From NCBI RefSeq assembly GCF_014197535.1, contig NZ_JACIFV010000003.1, forward strand, positions 186,001-250,000: a stretch of 64,000 bases of DNA, read 5' to 3'. The notes below the pieces were generated by a model, which saw only the letters and a list, made by a program, of their open reading frames with translations, was not told the DNA's origin and searched no databases. The translations under genes and the position numbers were made by a program. This DNA is from Rhizobium aethiopicum. Lineage in GTDB: Bacteria; Pseudomonadota; Alphaproteobacteria; Rhizobiales; Rhizobiaceae. Below are positions 58,347 through 64,000 of this stretch, piece by piece (position 1 is the stretch's first letter; each line of letters begins with the position of its first letter).

Positions 58347-58601
58347 TTAACGCGCCGCTTTCAGCTGCAGATCGTGCTCGACGGCGGGGGCCGCTCCGTC
58401 ATAGACCCGCATCAGCCGCCCGGCCGCCTTCAGCTTCTCGATAAGGTCGTTTCCGTCGGGCGAGGCTTTCGTCAGTTCCAGCTGCTCGAATTCCTTGAGC
58501 GCCTGCATCCAATGGCTTTCCCCGCGGCCTTCCGGCCTGCCTTCCGATTCCCACAGCGAATAAGCGCGCTGGCTGACCCAGGCGTCCTTATTGTGACTCA
58601 T
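58347..58601 (-). CDS. DUF2934-like small protein
   Basis: An 84-residue protein with RAYSLWESEGRPEGRGESHW near residue 12, the DUF2934 signature (Leu/Trp, Gly-Arg-Pro, His-Trp), then a helical acidic segment. Start 58601 (MSHNKDAW) is preferred because the 16-residue extension is unrelated. Such proteins are frequent in rhizobia and often stress-related; function is unknown. Confidence 0.78.
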   Translation of the reverse strand: MSHNKDAWVSQRAYSLWESEGRPEGRGESHWMQALKEFEQLELTKASPDGNDLIEKLKAAGRLMRVYDGAAPAVEHDLQLKAAR

Positions 58602-58823
58602 AACAAAACCCCAGCCGAAAATTTGGACGCAAATATCGAGTGCCGACAAGGTGCCAGACCTGGCTTTAGGAGTGGTTACGAGGCAGCGTTATTTTTTAGA
58701 TAATGCGAAGAGATGCGGATACTTAGGCCTTGATAAAGTAATATAAATCGGCGGCGGAATGGCATGCACCTACTGCTGCGGCCCTTGCCGATATGGCAAA
58801 GGCCGCAGCATTGCCGCAGGCAA

Positions 58824-60248
58824 TCAACGGCGTTCCCGTTTACGACGCCAGGGTGCATCCTTCTGCCAGTCACCGGCCATGATGCTTCCATAGGGAATGA
58901 CCTCGTCAACCACCTCGGCCAGACCGTAATGCTCGATCTGCGCACGCACATTGGCGGCAGACTTGTAGGCGCTCGGCAGTTCCGAGGCGTCGGCAAAGCC
59001 CGAGAAGAAGCGAACGTCCAGGCCCGCGGTCTCCTTTTCCAGGATCGCCGCCAGGTTGTTCGGGCTCAAGCCGCGGGCATCGGCGCCATATTCTTCCGCC
59101 AGGCGCCGCATATGGGCGCTGCGCGAAAAGTTACGGCCGGCGCCATGCGGCGAGAAGCCGAGGCCATGGGGGGCGTTGGAGCCGCGGACGATCAGGATCG
59201 GTTCCGCCATGTTGAGCGGAATGATCGTCAGATCGGTCGCATCCTCAGCCCATTTGTCGAAGGCGGGCGTCGCTCCCTTGCCGTGATAGAAGAGGCCGTC
59301 CGATTTCCGGAAAACGAAATTGTGCTCGTTCCAGAAACGATCGGCCACTTTTGCCGAGAGCGCCTCTGCTGCCATGTCATGCACGACATAGTGGTTTTCC
59401 CTCGTCCACTGCCTGATAGTCTGCAGAGCCGACCAGTAGAGCTCGCCCTCTTCGGTGTCGGCGGGGATCCAGGCATTGTCCCGCAGCGTTTCCGGCGAGA
59501 TCTGCTCGCGGAAGCGGTTCGCCGTCTTCATGCCCTTGTCGTAGAGCCGGGCACCCGGCGCACGCGACCCGTGATGGGTGACGAGTGCGGTCTCACCGGT
59601 CGATTTCATCGTGCCGACATAGGCGAAGTGATTGCCGTCGCCCTGGGTGCCGAAATGTTCGATGCCGGCACTGAGCGCCCCGTCCCGCAGGAACGGGTTC
59701 TGCTGGAAGGCCGACAGCGTCGCTTCGGAAGGCTTGATCTGCGCGCCGCGCGGACGGCCCCCGGGACCGAAATGCGTCACCGCATGCACGGCGTCCAGAA
59801 GTGATTTCGGATCGACATCCGGGAAGATCGAGATCGCCATGGAGCAGCAGATATCCGCCGAGTGCATGCCCGGATGGATCGCCTCCGATGCCACGACGCC
59901 ACCAACCGGAATGGTGCCGATCGGCCCGGCCGGGCAAGCATCGGGCATGATCGCTGCAGCCCGGACGACCGGCGTGCGTGCAAGCGCCCGCATCGTGGCG
60001 TTGACCTTCTCGACATTGTCCTGCTCGAAGGTGTTCTCGGCGCGGATATTGGAATAGATCTCGATATCGTTATTCGCCCTCAAGGCGAGCGTCGGCGCCG
60101 GCTGAAAAGCCCTTGCCGCTTCGAGCGCCTCTGCGGCCGAACCGCCTTGGCTCAAAACCCTGTTGGCCGCATCGAGGGCCGGGCGAAACCACTTGCCCTG
60201 GCTCATGCCTGCATCGATCAGATCCTGTCCGCTCATTATCTCGGTCAT
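58824..60248 (-). CDS. rtcB: RNA-splicing ligase RtcB
   Basis: A 474-residue Mn/GTP-dependent RNA ligase that joins 2',3'-cyclic-phosphate (or 3'-phosphate) ends to 5'-OH ends. Metal and guanylation residues by family position are Asp132 and Cys135 (SADICCSM), His207 (GDGNHF), His226 (THHGSRAPG), His286 (NHYV) and the GMP-accepting His368 (SPHGAGR). The C-terminus ends basic. The start is MTEIMSGQ at 60248, with an in-frame ATG 12 bases later and only a weak site. It is the last gene of the rsr - Y RNA - rtcB transcription unit. No rtcA cyclase gene is visible. Confidence 0.95.
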   Translation of the reverse strand: MTEIMSGQDLIDAGMSQGKWFRPALDAANRVLSQGGSAAEALEAARAFQPAPTLALRANNDIEIYSNIRAENTFEQDNVEKVNATMRALARTPVVRAAAIMPDACPAGPIGTIPVGGVVASEAIHPGMHSADICCSMAISIFPDVDPKSLLDAVHAVTHFGPGGRPRGAQIKPSEATLSAFQQNPFLRDGALSAGIEHFGTQGDGNHFAYVGTMKSTGETALVTHHGSRAPGARLYDKGMKTANRFREQISPETLRDNAWIPADTEEGELYWSALQTIRQWTRENHYVVHDMAAEALSAKVADRFWNEHNFVFRKSDGLFYHGKGATPAFDKWAEDATDLTIIPLNMAEPILIVRGSNAPHGLGFSPHGAGRNFSRSAHMRRLAEEYGADARGLSPNNLAAILEKETAGLDVRFFSGFADASELPSAYKSAANVRAQIEHYGLAEVVDEVIPYGSIMAGDWQKDAPWRRKRERR

Positions 60249-60298
60249 CTTCTTTTCTGCGTCTGCAGTCCTTCTTCTTCGTTACGTTTGATGCTCGC

Positions 60299-60391
60299 CT
60301 GGGCGACGATTTTCCCGGAGACCTTACCGCACGCATTCCATCACCGATGGCGCGATGCGGCCCTGTAGTCCGACCGGGGGCATTCGCCCAA
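60299..60391 (-). ncRNA. Y-RNA-like unit 5 (no tRNA mimic)
   Basis: 93 nt on the minus strand. TTGGGCGA at the 5' end pairs with TCGCCCAG at the 3' end. The shared motifs GAATGCC and GGACTACAG follow the 5' stem. Instead of a T-loop it has an extended hairpin (CCATC-GGT-GATGG inside CCGCA/TGCG pairs). It therefore keeps the closing stem and common motif but lacks the tRNA-like module. It is the unit nearest rtcB, 50 bases before its start codon. Confidence 0.6.
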
Positions 60392-60402
60392 GTTTCTTGC
60401 AT

Positions 60403-60538
60403 CCCGGTGACAACAGGTTGGCGGGATGATTGCTGAGCTACACGTCCCTTGCGGGAGATGGGATAATTTGAACATCCGACCTCTCCGCCGGAGATCGGCG
60501 GAGTGCTCTTTCCTGTAGTCCTGCCGGCATTCACCAGG
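60403..60538 (-). ncRNA. Y-RNA-like unit 4
   Basis: 136 nt. The ends CCTGGTGA and TCACCGGG pair with one wobble. GAATGCCGG and GGACTACAG follow. A T-arm mimic is present (GGATG, loop TTCAAAT, TATCC). It is followed by an acceptor-like stem CATCTCCC/GGGACGTG closed by a GCAA tetraloop with one mismatch, then TAGCTCAGC, the start of a D arm whose second strand is lost. An inner CAGG/CCTG pairing replaces the anticodon stem. Confidence 0.7.
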
Positions 60539-60545
60539 CATTACT

Positions 60546-60677
60546 TGCAGCGGCGACAAAGGTGGACGAACCTGTGTGGCCCCGCTCGTGCCAGAGAGCG
60601 CCGCCAAGGACAGGAGTCGAACCTGTCGGGCCACCTCAGGGTGGAGGCTGTAGTTCCGTCCGGCATTCGCCGCTGCA
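60546..60677 (-). ncRNA. Y-RNA-like unit 3
   Basis: 132 nt. The closing stem is 11 perfect pairs (TGCAGCGGCGA with TCGCCGCTGCA). GAATGCCGG and GGAACTACAG follow. GTGGCC/GGCCAC encloses a T-arm mimic (GACAGG, loop TTCGACT, CCTGTC) and a D-arm mimic (GCTC, loop TCTGGCAC containing GG, GAGC). The two arms are joined by a 7-base linker with no acceptor stem. Confidence 0.75.
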
Positions 60678-60685
60678 GTTTCGGT

Positions 60686-60810
60686 CATGGCGACAAGTCT
60701 TGAGGAAACATCTTGCGCATCCTCCTCCCTTTCGGGATTTGGGCGACAAGGCGGGCCTTGAACCCGCGCCCTTTCGGGTTACCGATGTAGTTTCCCCGGC
60801 ATTCGCCATG
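60686..60810 (-). ncRNA. Y-RNA-like unit 2
   Basis: 125 nt. CATGGCGA pairs with TCGCCATG. GAATGCCGG and AAACTACAT follow. A clear T-arm mimic has stem GCGGG/CCCGC and loop TTCAAGG. Next is a stem-loop CTTGTCGC/GCGCAAG with one bulge in acceptor position, containing CCC-GAAA-GGG. GGAAAC/GTTTCC replaces the anticodon stem. I cannot find a D arm. Confidence 0.72.
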
Positions 60811-60834
60811 TGGTTTGTATGTCATTCGATTGGT

Positions 60835-60970
60835 CCGTGACGACGAGATATGGTGGAACACCCGCTCTATCCGCTGAGCTACGGGTCCTTATTTTTGGGG
60901 GGACCCGACGGGATTCGAACCCGCGACCTGGAGAGTGACAGTCTGTAGTTCCATCCGGCATTCGTCACGG
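60835..60970 (-). ncRNA. Y-RNA-like unit 1, circularly permuted tRNA mimic
   Basis: 136 nt. The ends CCGTGACGA and TCGTCACGG pair perfectly. After GAATGCCGG and GGAACTACAG comes a T arm (GCGGG, loop TTCGAAT, CCCGT), then CGGGTCC, a 12-base loop CCCCAAAAATAA, and GGACCCG, which form a 7-bp acceptor stem. Then follows TA and a D arm (GCTC, loop AGCGGATA, GAGC). TGGAAC/GTTCCA takes the place of the anticodon stem and leads to the Ro-type closing stem. The D-loop GG and T-loop TTC needed for the tRNA elbow are present. This order (T arm, acceptor, D arm) is that of YrlA RNAs bound by Rsr. Confidence 0.85.
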
Positions 60971-60971
60971 T

Positions 60972-61001
60972 GCCTCGCGCCGTTCACTGGCGGCGCGAGG
61001 C
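60972..61001 (-). other. hairpin between rsr stop and first Y-RNA unit
   Basis: GCCTCGCGCCG and CGGCGCGAGGC form a perfect 11-bp stem with an 8-base loop, 4 bases after the rsr stop and 1 base before unit 1. No T run follows. It may mark or protect the 3' end of the rsr message after processing, or act as a partial terminator. Confidence 0.6.
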
Positions 61002-61005
61002 AATT

Positions 61006-62559
61006 TCAAAGATCGGTCGCCTCGATTCTGCGAACCCATTCGCCCGGACCGGACTTGCCGGCCGCGAAGCTGGCAATGGCTCCGTAGACGGCATCCGAGA
61101 AGCCGCCGATGTTCAGCACGTCCTCGGCCCTGGCTGGCGTCTGGACGTAAGGCTGGATGTCGAGGCAGACCAGCTTTGCAGCCGGGTTCAGCCTCTTGAT
61201 CCGCGCCCATTCGACCATCATCTCGGTCGCCTGGCCGTGCCCCTGCGCATCCATCCAGGACTGGTTGTCCGAGACGAAGACCACGAGGTCGACCGCCGCC
61301 TTCTCCTTTGCCAGCAGCCGCAGCGGCGCAGAGCAGTTCGTTCCGCCGCCGCCGACCGCCGCAAGCTTCGCCGCATTGGTCATCACGCTGTCACGCCCAT
61401 TCAGGCGGACGTTTACGACGTCCTGTTCGAACGGGATGATACGCGCATGCCGGTTACGTCGAAGGAACGACGCAGCCATGAGTGCTGCGATATCGATGCA
61501 GCGGACGGCTGATGTCGCGCCCTTCCGGTAACCGGTAACGGGGGACGACATGGAGCCGGAAACATCCGGGCAGACCACGACATTGCCGCCGATGGTCGGC
61601 ACGCTGGAGATTGCCACCTCCATCGCATCCTGCAGAGCATCCGCAACGACAGCCGGAACCGACCGGTTCGCCATATGCCACGCCACCATCAACTGGTAGG
61701 GGAAGACACGCGCCTTCCGCACCGCTTCCGGATCGGCGATCCGTGCAGCAAGCCGTTCGGCCATGCCATCCAGCTCGAACACCCCGTTTCGGGCAAAGGT
61801 GTTGAGGTTCTGGCGCACCATCTGCCACGAGCCCTTCAAGGCGATTTCCGACCACTGCTCCTTGCTCAAACCAAGCGAGGTCAACATCTGGAACGGCACG
61901 GGCGGCAGCGGCAAGCTGCTATCGCGCTTGAACGCTTCGAACGCCTTTGCCTCCGCCGGCAATGCGGCGATATCATACGGCTTGCCAATCGCCCAGGCGT
62001 AGAGCGCCTGACGTTTCGCATCCCGCGGCTTCGGATGCACCATCCGGATCACATCCGGCAGCGACGGATCATTGCCGACCATCGCCTGCAGGAACTGTTC
62101 CGTCGTCACCCGGTCGAACCAGGCCTGGACCATCTTCTTCGGCCGCGATCCGAGCGATTTCCGGCCGGTCACACCCGACCGCATGACCTGCACGAAGCCG
62201 CGCAACATCTTGCCGCTCTTTACCACACGCGGAAAAGCTCGCGCAAAGGCATCGCTTTCGAGGCCCGAAAGCATCGCCAGCAGCATGACCGGCATGTCCT
62301 TTATATGGCCCTTGTCCGCCGCGTAGACCGCGAGCTTTGCCAGGAATTCCGGCTCGACCTCCGCGCCAAGGCGCATCACGGCATCGAGCTGTTCCCCGGC
62401 ATCCGCATAGAAGGTGTCGCTGAATGTTCCGGTGACGGCATATTGCGCCAGGGCCTCACGCGGCGAGAGAGCATAGGCTGCTGCGCCTTCGTGGTTGGTC
62501 GTCGTCGTGCCGGCGAGCAGCTTTCCAAAATAGGATTTGAAAATTGCCTTGTTCACCAT
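61006..62559 (-). CDS. rsr: TROVE-domain Ro60 homologue (Rsr)
   Basis: A 517-residue ring-shaped RNA-binding protein of the Ro60 family. The N-terminal TROVE (HEAT-repeat) region covers about residues 1-320 (e.g. ALSPREALAQYAVTGTFSDT). It is followed by a von Willebrand A domain with the MIDAS motif DVSGSMS near residue 330 and GGGTNCSAPL. Ro60/Rsr binds Y RNAs and misfolded RNAs and, with PNPase, degrades structured RNA. ATG 62559 has AGAGGTG upstream. A sigma-54 promoter lies 37-53 bases upstream, and five Y-RNA-like units plus rtcB follow on the same strand. Confidence 0.95.
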   Translation of the reverse strand: MVNKAIFKSYFGKLLAGTTTTNHEGAAAYALSPREALAQYAVTGTFSDTFYADAGEQLDAVMRLGAEVEPEFLAKLAVYAADKGHIKDMPVMLLAMLSGLESDAFARAFPRVVKSGKMLRGFVQVMRSGVTGRKSLGSRPKKMVQAWFDRVTTEQFLQAMVGNDPSLPDVIRMVHPKPRDAKRQALYAWAIGKPYDIAALPAEAKAFEAFKRDSSLPLPPVPFQMLTSLGLSKEQWSEIALKGSWQMVRQNLNTFARNGVFELDGMAERLAARIADPEAVRKARVFPYQLMVAWHMANRSVPAVVADALQDAMEVAISSVPTIGGNVVVCPDVSGSMSSPVTGYRKGATSAVRCIDIAALMAASFLRRNRHARIIPFEQDVVNVRLNGRDSVMTNAAKLAAVGGGGTNCSAPLRLLAKEKAAVDLVVFVSDNQSWMDAQGHGQATEMMVEWARIKRLNPAAKLVCLDIQPYVQTPARAEDVLNIGGFSDAVYGAIASFAAGKSGPGEWVRRIEATDL

Positions 62560-62595
62560 GGCAGCACCTCTTTGATTTGGTTCTGCCTCATACAA

Positions 62596-62612
62596 TTCAA
62601 GTGGCGTGCCAG
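62596..62612 (-). promoter_or_regulatory. sigma-54 (-24/-12) promoter of rsr operon
   Basis: On the minus strand CTGGCACG, CCAC and TTGAA match the sigma-54 consensus TGGCACG-N4-TTGCW, with a perfect -24 element and one mismatch at -12. The expected start is near 62585, giving a ~26-nt leader to rsr. The divergent gene encodes RtcR, a sigma-54 activator, which makes the call coherent. Confidence 0.8.
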
Positions 62613-62670
62613 TTTCTAAGAACTGCGGCAAGCCTCCGCAAATCCGTTCATAAATCTTTGATTTTTAATA

Positions 62671-62767: not shown

Positions 62768-64000
62768 ATGATGAAGCGCCGTGTCGCCATCAGCATTCTT
62801 GGAACGACTCTCGACGTGGGCCGGCGTGAAGACCGATGGACGCGCTGGCGGCCGAATGTCGGCCTTTGCCAACAGACCGGTCTTTTCATCGATCGGCTGG
62901 AACTGATCCACGACAACCATTCCGACTGGCTGGCCAAGACTGTGATCAGGGATATCGAGACGATTTCGCCCGCGACGGAGGTTCGCCAGCGCATCATCAA
63001 TCTGCGGGATCCCTGGGACTTTTCCGAAGTCTATACGAGCCTCAGGGATTTTGCCCGCGACTACAGTTTCGATCCCGAGGCCGAAGACTATCTCGTCAAC
63101 ATCACCACCGGCACTCACGTCGCCCAGATCTGCTGGTTCCTCCTGACCGAAGCGCGCATCATCCCCGGCAGGTTGCTGCAACTCTCTCCGCCGCGCGAGC
63201 GCGAGCCGGGACAGGATTTCGCGGGAACCCATCGCATCATCGATCTTGATCTCTCGCGCTATGACGAAATCGCCAAGCGCTTCGCATCCGAACAGGCTGA
63301 TGCCGCCTCGTTTCTGAAATCCGGTATTTCGACGCGAAACCCCGCCTTCAACCGAATGATCGATGAGATCGAGCGCGTTGTGATCCGTTCTACCGCACCC
63401 GTCTTGCTGACCGGCCCGACCGGCGCGGGAAAATCCCAGCTTGCCAAGCGCATCTACGAACTCAAGAGGGTCGAGCGAAAGGTCAGCGGCCCCTTCGTCG
63501 AGGTCAACTGCGCAACGCTGCGTGGGGATCACGCCATGTCGGCGCTTTTCGGCCATGTCAAAGGCGCCTTCACCGGCGCCGCAGGCGAACGGCCCGGCCT
63601 GCTGAAGTCGGCGGACAAGGGCGTGCTCTTTCTCGATGAGATCGGGGAACTCGGCCTCGATGAACAGGCCATGTGCCTGCGGGCGATCGAGGAGAAGCGC
63701 TTCCTGCCGGTCGGCGCGGACCGCGAAGTTTCCGCCGACTTCCAGCTTCTGGCGGGCACCAATCGCGATCTCGGTGACGCCGTCCATCATGGTCAATTCC
63801 GCGAAGATCTCTTTGCCCGGCTCAATCTATGGACTTTCCAGCTGCCGGCGTTGCGCGAGCGCAAGGAGGATATCGAGCCCAATCTCGATTTCGAGCTTCG
63901 ACGGTTCCTTGAACGTGAAGGGCAGAACGTGACGTTCAACAAAGAGGCGCGAAGCCGCTATCTCGCGTTTGCGACCGGCTCGGAGGCTGTCTGGAGCGCG
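62768..64000 (+). CDS. rtcR: RtcR sigma-54-dependent activator (C-terminus beyond window)
   Basis: The first 411 residues are visible. The N-terminal CARF-like sensor (residues ~1-180) has VAISILGTTLDVG and YLVNITTGTHVAQICWFLLT. The AAA+ domain has Walker A GPTGAGKS (~216), the sigma-54 loop GAFTGA (~266), Walker B GVLFLDEIGEL (~285) and REDLFARLNLW. The DNA-binding domain is cut off. RtcR activates the rtcB operon; in enteric bacteria its CARF domain senses tRNA fragments with 2',3'-cyclic phosphate ends. It is divergent from rsr. The ribosome-binding site is weak (GGAT). Confidence 0.93.
   Translation, partial: MMKRRVAISILGTTLDVGRREDRWTRWRPNVGLCQQTGLFIDRLELIHDNHSDWLAKTVIRDIETISPATEVRQRIINLRDPWDFSEVYTSLRDFARDYSFDPEAEDYLVNITTGTHVAQICWFLLTEARIIPGRLLQLSPPREREPGQDFAGTHRIIDLDLSRYDEIAKRFASEQADAASFLKSGISTRNPAFNRMIDEIERVVIRSTAPVLLTGPTGAGKSQLAKRIYELKRVERKVSGPFVEVNCATLRGDHAMSALFGHVKGAFTGAAGERPGLLKSADKGVLFLDEIGELGLDEQAMCLRAIEEKRFLPVGADREVSADFQLLAGTNRDLGDAVHHGQFREDLFARLNLWTFQLPALRERKEDIEPNLDFELRRFLEREGQNVTFNKEARSRYLAFATGSEAVWSA

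Follow-up and report, generated by a model that had tools for sequence, protein, structure and literature searches.

Y-RNA-like units in a rhizobial rsr–rtcB gap share one handle and carry heads of different kinds, one of them resembling a tRNA permuted at the D loop

Why a Ro protein should be accompanied by several Y RNAs, and what the heads of these RNAs do, are questions raised by a 64,000-nt stretch of Rhizobium aethiopicum DNA (hereafter the window), in which the 757-nt gap from the rsr stop to the rtcB start (60249-61005) is filled by five minus-strand units. A first-pass annotation had proposed a tandem array of Y-RNA-like genes at this place, and chance controls confirm that the five units are there: the real gap yields five at a stem score of at least 7, whereas 2000 dinucleotide shuffles averaged 0.002 and never held more than one. 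The shared GAATGCC motif gains a stem partner in 598 of 10000 trials on random 170-nt stretches of the window, so a single unit might be due to chance, while five of five would not. The sizes that had been given for the first four units were reproduced, namely 136 nt for unit A (60835..60970), 125 nt for B1 (60686..60810), 132 nt for C (60546..60677) and 136 nt for D (60403..60538), as was the spacing of 7-24 nt (24, 8, 7 and 10 nt). The fifth, unit E (60298..60392), is also present and gains one more pair, which makes it 95 nt long instead of 93 nt. Each unit has its own end-to-end stem, as had been proposed; in order from A to E the stems measure 9, 8, 11, 8 and 9 bp, so that the earlier range of 7-11 bp becomes 8-11 bp, a difference of one pair. 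GAATGCC and ACTACA are indeed common to the five units; GAATGCC forms the inner end of the 5′ arm, with its GA still paired, and ACTACA comes next. A YNG triplet before the TCG or TCA of the 3′ arm, found in 5/5 units, had gone unreported. The folding z-scores of the five units are −2.2, −3.5, −3.5, −3.3 and −3.7. Covariance models built for types D and E, with the window units among the building sequences of both, match nothing else in the 64-kb window: the type-D model finds four of the five units at E 0.001, and the type-E model finds the fifth.

The Rfam YrlA model (RF02553), scanned over the window, matched unit A with 64.5 bits and unit B1 with 42.9 bits, both below the gathering cut-off of 69, and gave no match to units C, D and E at E values up to 1. 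Among the arrays of eight relatives that were scanned, four (L012, L016, L028 and L044) contain one unit each above the cut-off, and the places of these four units in their arrays mark them as B2 or X and not as A, C, D or E. The array lies between rsr and rtcB in all 35 named relatives with a complete gap. As in the wider class of bacterial Y RNAs, the units adjoin the gene for a Ro60 homologue (Rsr) and are closed by an end-to-end stem, both strands of which have conserved sequences on the Rsr side, and unit A contains a tRNA-like domain (a T arm, an acceptor stem and a D arm). According to what Chen reportedly described in 2014, such a domain occurs in at least one of the Y RNAs that a species has. 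The Y-RNA identity that had first been proposed is thus supported by the YrlA covariance matches, by the position between rsr and rtcB and by closing stems that covary (see below). These comparisons support the view that the five units are Y-RNA-like, with one stem-and-loop handle in common. The handle is likely to be the Rsr-binding site, all five units presumably docking through the same stem.

The genes around the gap resemble an RtcR-controlled operon, with an rtcR that has CARF and σ54 domains, an rtcB and a promoter recognized by its consensus. The rsr gene (61006..62559, minus strand) encodes a Ro60-like ring protein of 517 amino acids; its open frame extends to 62631 (61006-62631), and from the promoter position and a conserved ATG it seems likely that translation starts at the ATG at 62559 and that the listed frame is too long. 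The protein scored 63.1 bits with Pfam vWA_Ro60 and 31.5 bits with TROVE, rsr being the one TROVE match in the genome, and its closest solved structure is Deinococcus radiodurans Rsr (2nvo, E 2.6e-19); with 81 of 900 bits it falls below the NCBIfam equivalog cut-off (NF041674). The rtcB-like RNA ligase gene (58824..60248, minus strand; Pfam RtcB, 104.8 bits) likewise lies below the RtcB equivalog cut-offs of NCBIfam. A DUF2934 gene (58347-58649) follows downstream of it on the same strand. The divergent rtcR gene, for a CARF/σ54 activator (62768..64000, plus strand), continues beyond the window end; its product matched Pfam RtcR with 266 bits as well as Sigma54_activat, and exceeded the NCBIfam RNA_repair_RtcR cut-off (664 versus 650 bits). 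No match to the RtcA cyclase family (PF01137) was found in the genome, and the same search was positive in 5 of 14 control genomes.

Upstream of rsr, a site on the minus strand (62596..62611), TGGCACG-N4-TTGAA, agrees at 11 of 12 positions with the σ54 consensus. The site begins 52 nt before the ATG from which rsr probably starts, and in 36 of 37 upstream regions the best such site (10-11 of 12) occupies the equivalent place, the exception being L041, where it lies inside the gene; only 5 of 2000 random window pieces scored at least 10. This was the third form of the scan, and the TTGAA variant emerged once GC at −12 was no longer required: with that requirement 6 of 36 regions reached at least 8, which is not above random pieces (170/1000). 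A 12-bp hairpin, an exact inverted repeat (60971..61002, minus strand), stands directly 5′ of unit A, and a GC-rich, strong hairpin is found at its place in the predicted folds of 36/36 gaps. An intrinsic terminator is ruled out in the window, where no T run follows the hairpin; a processing or stability element is possible. According to Hughes (2020; PMC7790460), the Salmonella rsr-yrlBA-rtcBA locus is similar in having a divergent rtcR, rsr, Y RNAs, rtcB and a σ54-type site. It differs in that two Y RNA units are described there as against five here, that the present genome lacks rtcA and that its Rsr and RtcB are divergent.

Could the array simply be a structured spacer of the rsr–rtcB messenger, with hairpins that set stability or translation and yield no separate RNAs? 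All units do lie in one gap of one operon, and promoter- and terminator-like sites within the region show no excess over shuffles, as a spacer would have it. We nevertheless regard this as very unlikely in view of the end-to-end stems that delimit units of 95-136 nt, the YrlA matches above the cut-off in relatives and a number of units that changes from three to seven while the handle is retained.

Searches of named genomes with Rsr gave 36 loci, 35 of them with a complete rsr–rtcB gap (L037 was lost to a contig end), and the comparison set, the window included, comprised 36 gaps of 521-1206 nt; that of L041 is given as 1045 nt because the Rsr match ends early. An automatic caller, which combines motif and stem, found three to seven units in each of the 36 gaps and 168 in total (three units in 8 gaps, four in 6, five in 14, six in 6 and seven in 2). 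The suggestion that five units in one operon would be a notable expansion is therefore only half borne out; the window is not peculiar in this respect. Among the called units, GAATGC is present in 161, CTACA in 159 and YNG before the 3′ arm in 167, figures to be read with the AATGC plus CTAC-like motif being part of the caller's search pattern and YNG being favoured by its score. Inspection of the larger left-over stretches by eye revealed extra units in 12 loci, up to eight in L012 and L022, which are excluded from the caller counts. Multi-unit arrays also occur in other families of the order. When 29 further stretches from the order were scored with a looser caller, 24 contained an rsr relative more than 50% identical, each followed by one to five called units, and in 17 of these 24 an rtcB relative lies further on, in some cases just 25-29% identical; L064 and L075 are the same place, and L051 is from the window's own family. 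L066-L069 and L081 have neither a proper rsr nor an array, with one stray call in L067.

Clustering of the called units gave types that succeed one another as A, B or X, C, D and E across the gaps. Type A is present in 36/36 gaps and is always first, and type C is likewise present in 36/36. For type D, 32 copies of at least 116 bits were found in 25 of 36 sources, 30 of these copies having been used to build the model, and type E was called in 18 of 36 gaps and found by its model in 20/36 sources at 66 bits or more. The B units were grouped by place and 5′ end (the names of the B and X forms are our own); the B1 form is present in 10/36 gaps and other B forms in 25 further gaps, with none called in L021. 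Duplications are seen as a second A unit in L022, before C, and as two D units in several loci. An extra type, which we term F and which the automatic caller missed, has a T-arm-like hairpin plus other hairpins and follows the B unit in L013, L014, L017, L022, L026, L032, L033, L038 and L042. In L032 (6475-6526) a type-E unit is reduced to the handle and a single short hairpin, so that it reads as a headless Y RNA.

Compensatory changes in the closing stems across relatives, which had been named as a check on the array, are present, and the stems covary. Changes on both sides of a pair were observed in 8 of 33 pairs of type A (shuffled mean 3.8), 9 of 37 of type C (3.5), 16 of 40 of type D (6.1) and 6 of 25 of type E (1.5), values that 0/500 shuffles reached in any of the four types. 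Paired cells amount to 97.0-99.2% in types A, C, D and E, compared with 27-59% when partners are slid, a control on which the structures are favoured, having been derived from the same alignments. A weaker measure, counting further pair types, was one of five and was reached by 42/500 shuffles for type A and 7/500 for type C; no both-side change was seen in the 11 rows of type B2. These data bear on whether the units are plain YrlA paralogues that all do the same job, their heads differing by drift after duplication. Duplications exist, as with the two A units of L022 and the two D units of several loci, and unit D of the window has drifted. Yet A and C are present in 36/36 gaps and D in 25, with each head covarying on its own, and drift would hardly keep the heads separate across genera; we therefore consider that paralogy of this kind is unlikely to account for the array.

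The heads themselves differ in kind. That of unit A, which we read as a known YrlA-type tRNA mimic, consists of a T arm, a 7-bp acceptor stem and a D arm, without an anticodon arm. NCCA follows the acceptor strand in 30 of 37 A units (CCCC in the window copy), as if an acceptor end had been sealed into a loop. Unit B1 has a T-arm-like hairpin plus other hairpins. Unit C seems to offer T- and D-like arms: beside its T arm stands a D-arm-like hairpin that hardly varies, CGCTC-TCTGGCAC-GAGCG, and no acceptor stem is recognizable in the unit. Unit E is one long hairpin with no T loop, D arm or other tRNA part, and unit D has all the cloverleaf parts in an order that suggests circular permutation at the D loop. 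YrlA (RF02553; Salmonella YrlA, 6CU1) resembles the array in standing beside rsr and in having a closing stem with conserved AUGC and UUGUCG, and unit A shares with it the circular permutation of T arm, acceptor stem and D arm. It differs in that the present gap has five units, C to E being unmatched by the Rfam model. Unit D, moreover, has its permutation at the D loop and retains an anticodon-arm-like hairpin; in the YrlA model the handle occupies the anticodon-arm position. Sequence and covariation show a common handle with five heads, separate types conserved in nearly fixed order and a permuted cloverleaf as one such type; the difference in kind among the heads, and the probable D-loop permutation of one, go beyond the first-pass annotation.

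From 5′ to 3′, type D runs through GG..A and GAGC, a single base, a first hairpin, AGGTC, the T arm (with TTCAAAT), a second hairpin, TA, GCTC and AG. With positions assigned according to tRNA numbering, this corresponds to the 3′ half of the D loop, the D stem, anticodon arm, variable loop, T arm and acceptor stem, followed by positions 8-9, the D stem and the 5′ half of the D loop. Judged by its sequence, type D is a whole tRNA opened in the D loop. In unit D of the window, on the minus strand, GAGC (60505..60508), the D-stem 3′ strand that comes 5′ in the RNA, is proposed to pair with 60435-60438. It is followed by an anticodon-arm-like hairpin of 8 bp with a 5-nt loop (60483..60503; 6/7 pairs covary), the T arm GGATG-TTCAAAT-TATCC with AGGTC before it (60461..60477), a loop-closed acceptor-stem-like hairpin (60441..60460; 5/8 pairs covary) and, after TA, GCTC (60435..60438), the D-stem 5′ strand that comes 3′ in the RNA. 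All arms are found in type D in permuted order, with a D stem from distant strands. A standard anticodon arm (5 bp with a conserved 7-nt loop) and a free CCA end are absent from unit D; the anticodon-like loops at other D places are of 3-10 nt, and the acceptor is closed by a loop.

The D stem is invariant in the rhizobial alignment of close relatives and so gives no proof of pairing there. In a wider sample of 17 D-type rows, chosen by eye and labelled by the tool as belonging to seven families, the stem is paired in 17/17 rows, with both-side change in 2/4 pairs; L046, L052, L057, L063 and L065, D-type by eye, are absent from this alignment. The variants are GAGC/GCTC, GCGC/GCGC and GAAC/GTTC, and the changes probably represent two events only, one shared by L051 and L087 and the other by L056 and L058. 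A descriptor of the permuted cloverleaf, composed after type D had been seen, found 15 strict places in the 36 gaps, all of them type D, and it misses about half of the D units. A further five places came from 19 other loci, and both strands of the window together gave a single one, unit D; on 2160 shuffled gaps the descriptor scored at least 24 once and never 27 or more.

As a test of the permuted cloverleaf, type-D heads were joined at the D loop and opened in the acceptor loop. With an ACCA end added, to the shuffled heads as well, ARAGORN called a tRNA on the given strand in 20 of 38 re-joined heads (16/30 rhizobial, 4/8 others), compared with 0/42 heads as encoded and 0/760 shuffled heads; the script failed to cut four of the 42 (L055-L058), and L052 was left out. 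The heads of R. sophoriradicis (L016) and Rhizobium sp. AC27/96 (L028) are among those called. The 18 uncalled heads of the 38 include both Leu-type ones described below. The called anticodons vary from unit to unit and several have an odd loop, from which it follows that decoding is not the feature that has been kept. For the permuted cloverleaf, the copy of unit D in the window is a weak example. Its re-joined head was not called a tRNA by ARAGORN, its minimum-energy fold omits the D stem, although both strands are present, its D loop has GGAAA where other copies have GGTA, and its model score is the second lowest among the 32 copies.

Two relatives, L063 (1501-1643) and L065 (1501-1651), have D-type heads with a long variable arm and a Leu-type D arm, as in a class II tRNA mimic, and on reading by eye appear to carry a Leu-like D head. 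The D arm of L065 is GGCGGAA/GGTAGACGC, that of L063 being identical but for one change; across the two heads the pattern is GGCGGAA ... GGTA(T or G)ACGC, and its exact form with G occurs at three places in the window's genome, each in a tRNA-Leu gene. The handle is altered in L063 and L065: GAGGATGCC, GAGAGATGCC.

Across the order, the type-D model at E 0.001 had matches in 34 of 297 genomes. Among the best 19 order-level places fetched, our own excluded, 14 are D-type by eye, three A-type and two B-like, and an rsr relative lies beside 19/19. At phylum level 30 of 349 genomes were matched, and of eight new places four are tandem tRNA genes (L090, L091, L092 and L094), two are other Y RNAs beside rsr and two are D-type beside rsr, L087 in the window's own family and L088 in another order of the class. 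Tandem tRNA genes are matched because, where one tRNA ends and another begins, the parts succeed one another as in type D, and since the phylum-level places are partly of this sort, type D is established within one class only. A wider spread drawn from weak matches was rejected, with 4/8 phylum-level places being tandem tRNA genes and 5/16 stretches lacking a proper rsr, and weak type-A matches were not accepted as Y RNAs for the same reason. Such matches, together with the 5/16 stretches around further matches that have no proper rsr, would suit decayed tRNA genes or a tRNA-derived repeat, but ARAGORN found no tRNA, ordinary tRNA genes included, in the region of the array, the closing stems and heads covary, and the 19/19 best fetched places of the order stand beside an rsr relative; decay of this sort is extremely improbable. 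The permuted heads may themselves derive from junctions between tandem tRNAs. The type-E model matched 2 of 249 genomes of the order. The operon is patchily distributed: of the 13 genomes listed in the family to which the window belongs, 3 gave type-A matches above 50 bits.

Permutation at this point of a tRNA has a parallel in type I circularly permuted tRNA genes, which, according to PMC3978253, have their junction at 20/21 in the D loop and are matured to tRNAs. The break is likewise in the D loop here; the differences are that a Y-RNA handle carries the grafted ends, that the acceptor forms a closed hairpin and that the anticodon loop is not conserved. The ARTEMIS paper (PMC11472068) reports that 6CU1 superposes on tRNA with a circular permutation. 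No earlier description of D-loop-permuted Y RNAs or long Y RNA arrays was found in our literature searches, and one may exist.

What could such an array do? RtcR is described as binding 5′ tRNA fragments with a 2′,3′-cyclic phosphate, and Rsr as acting with Y RNA and PNPase, in PMC7790460, PMC8394870 and PMC4726728; in D. radiodurans, according to PMC4726728 and PMC8394870, Rsr is tethered to PNPase by Y RNA. By analogy with this RYPER complex, our working model takes a Ro-like ring and Y RNA tethers as its basis. Broken tRNAs would activate RtcR, which would fire the σ54-type promoter before rsr; induction by broken tRNA is predicted from this site and the divergent rtcR. A single transcript would comprise rsr, the Y RNAs and rtcB, and excision at the end-to-end stems would release five RNAs from it. 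The Rsr ring would hold each of them by the common handle, and the heads would offer tRNA-like surfaces, namely a whole body, an elbow only, a body without the anticodon arm and a plain hairpin. In this way one ring could be linked to several tRNA-handling enzymes or give protection from them, with the exonuclease PNPase as the known case, while RtcB rejoined tRNA halves. The D head keeps the tRNA body but, lacking a conserved anticodon loop and a free acceptor end, would neither decode nor be charged; it might be a bait that an anticodon nuclease cannot cut, or a docking piece. Overall, we think it somewhat probable that the locus has one handle and five heads, the fourth a D-loop-permuted tRNA, and that its products are RtcR-induced ring adaptors facing tRNA-handling enzymes.

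A more specific form of this proposal, to which we give an even chance, is that one operon makes exchangeable RNA adaptors, a modular tool kit in which tRNA bodies have been grafted onto one handle at two breakpoints, the anticodon arm in type A and the D loop in type D. The bodies would come in short- and long-variable-arm (Leu-like) versions, beside elbow-only and non-tRNA heads, and the kit would present, protect or bait tRNA-handling enzymes when tRNAs are cut. The RNAs might instead be gates or decoys only: seated on the Rsr ring, they would let substrate RNA in or keep it out and would soak up enzymes that cut or modify tRNA, without tethering anything. Bait is what tRNA bodies without a conserved anticodon loop and free 3′ end would suit, and Hughes (2020; PMC7790460) raises a competitive-inhibitor role for the tRNA-like domain. 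Unit E, however, has no tRNA part and is kept in 20/36 sources, and we hold the gate or decoy explanation to be rather unlikely.

If the adaptor proposal holds, one stress-response machine could present several tRNA look-alikes, and the D-loop permutation would give this RNA class a second way to imitate a tRNA. The handle stays constant while the heads are distinct and covary, and the array thus forms a natural series in which head-specific partners could be fished side by side, and the permuted mimic would test which part of a tRNA a partner sees: body, elbow, anticodon arm or variable arm.

No copies of unit D were found in the phage collection; Rsr relatives are present there in 161 records, of which 123 are Streptomyces phages. 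Plasmid records matched the array in 52 cases, 43 of them Rhizobium, and 25 cover at least 80% of it. The array of R. etli CIAT 652 is 73% identical along its full extent. The window Rsr is 93% identical to R. aethiopicum, about 73-75% identical to most other Rhizobium loci found and 81-83% identical to Neorhizobium, Endobacterium, R. populisoli and Rhizobium sp. BK376. From this pattern of Rsr identity, the operon may have been exchanged between lineages.
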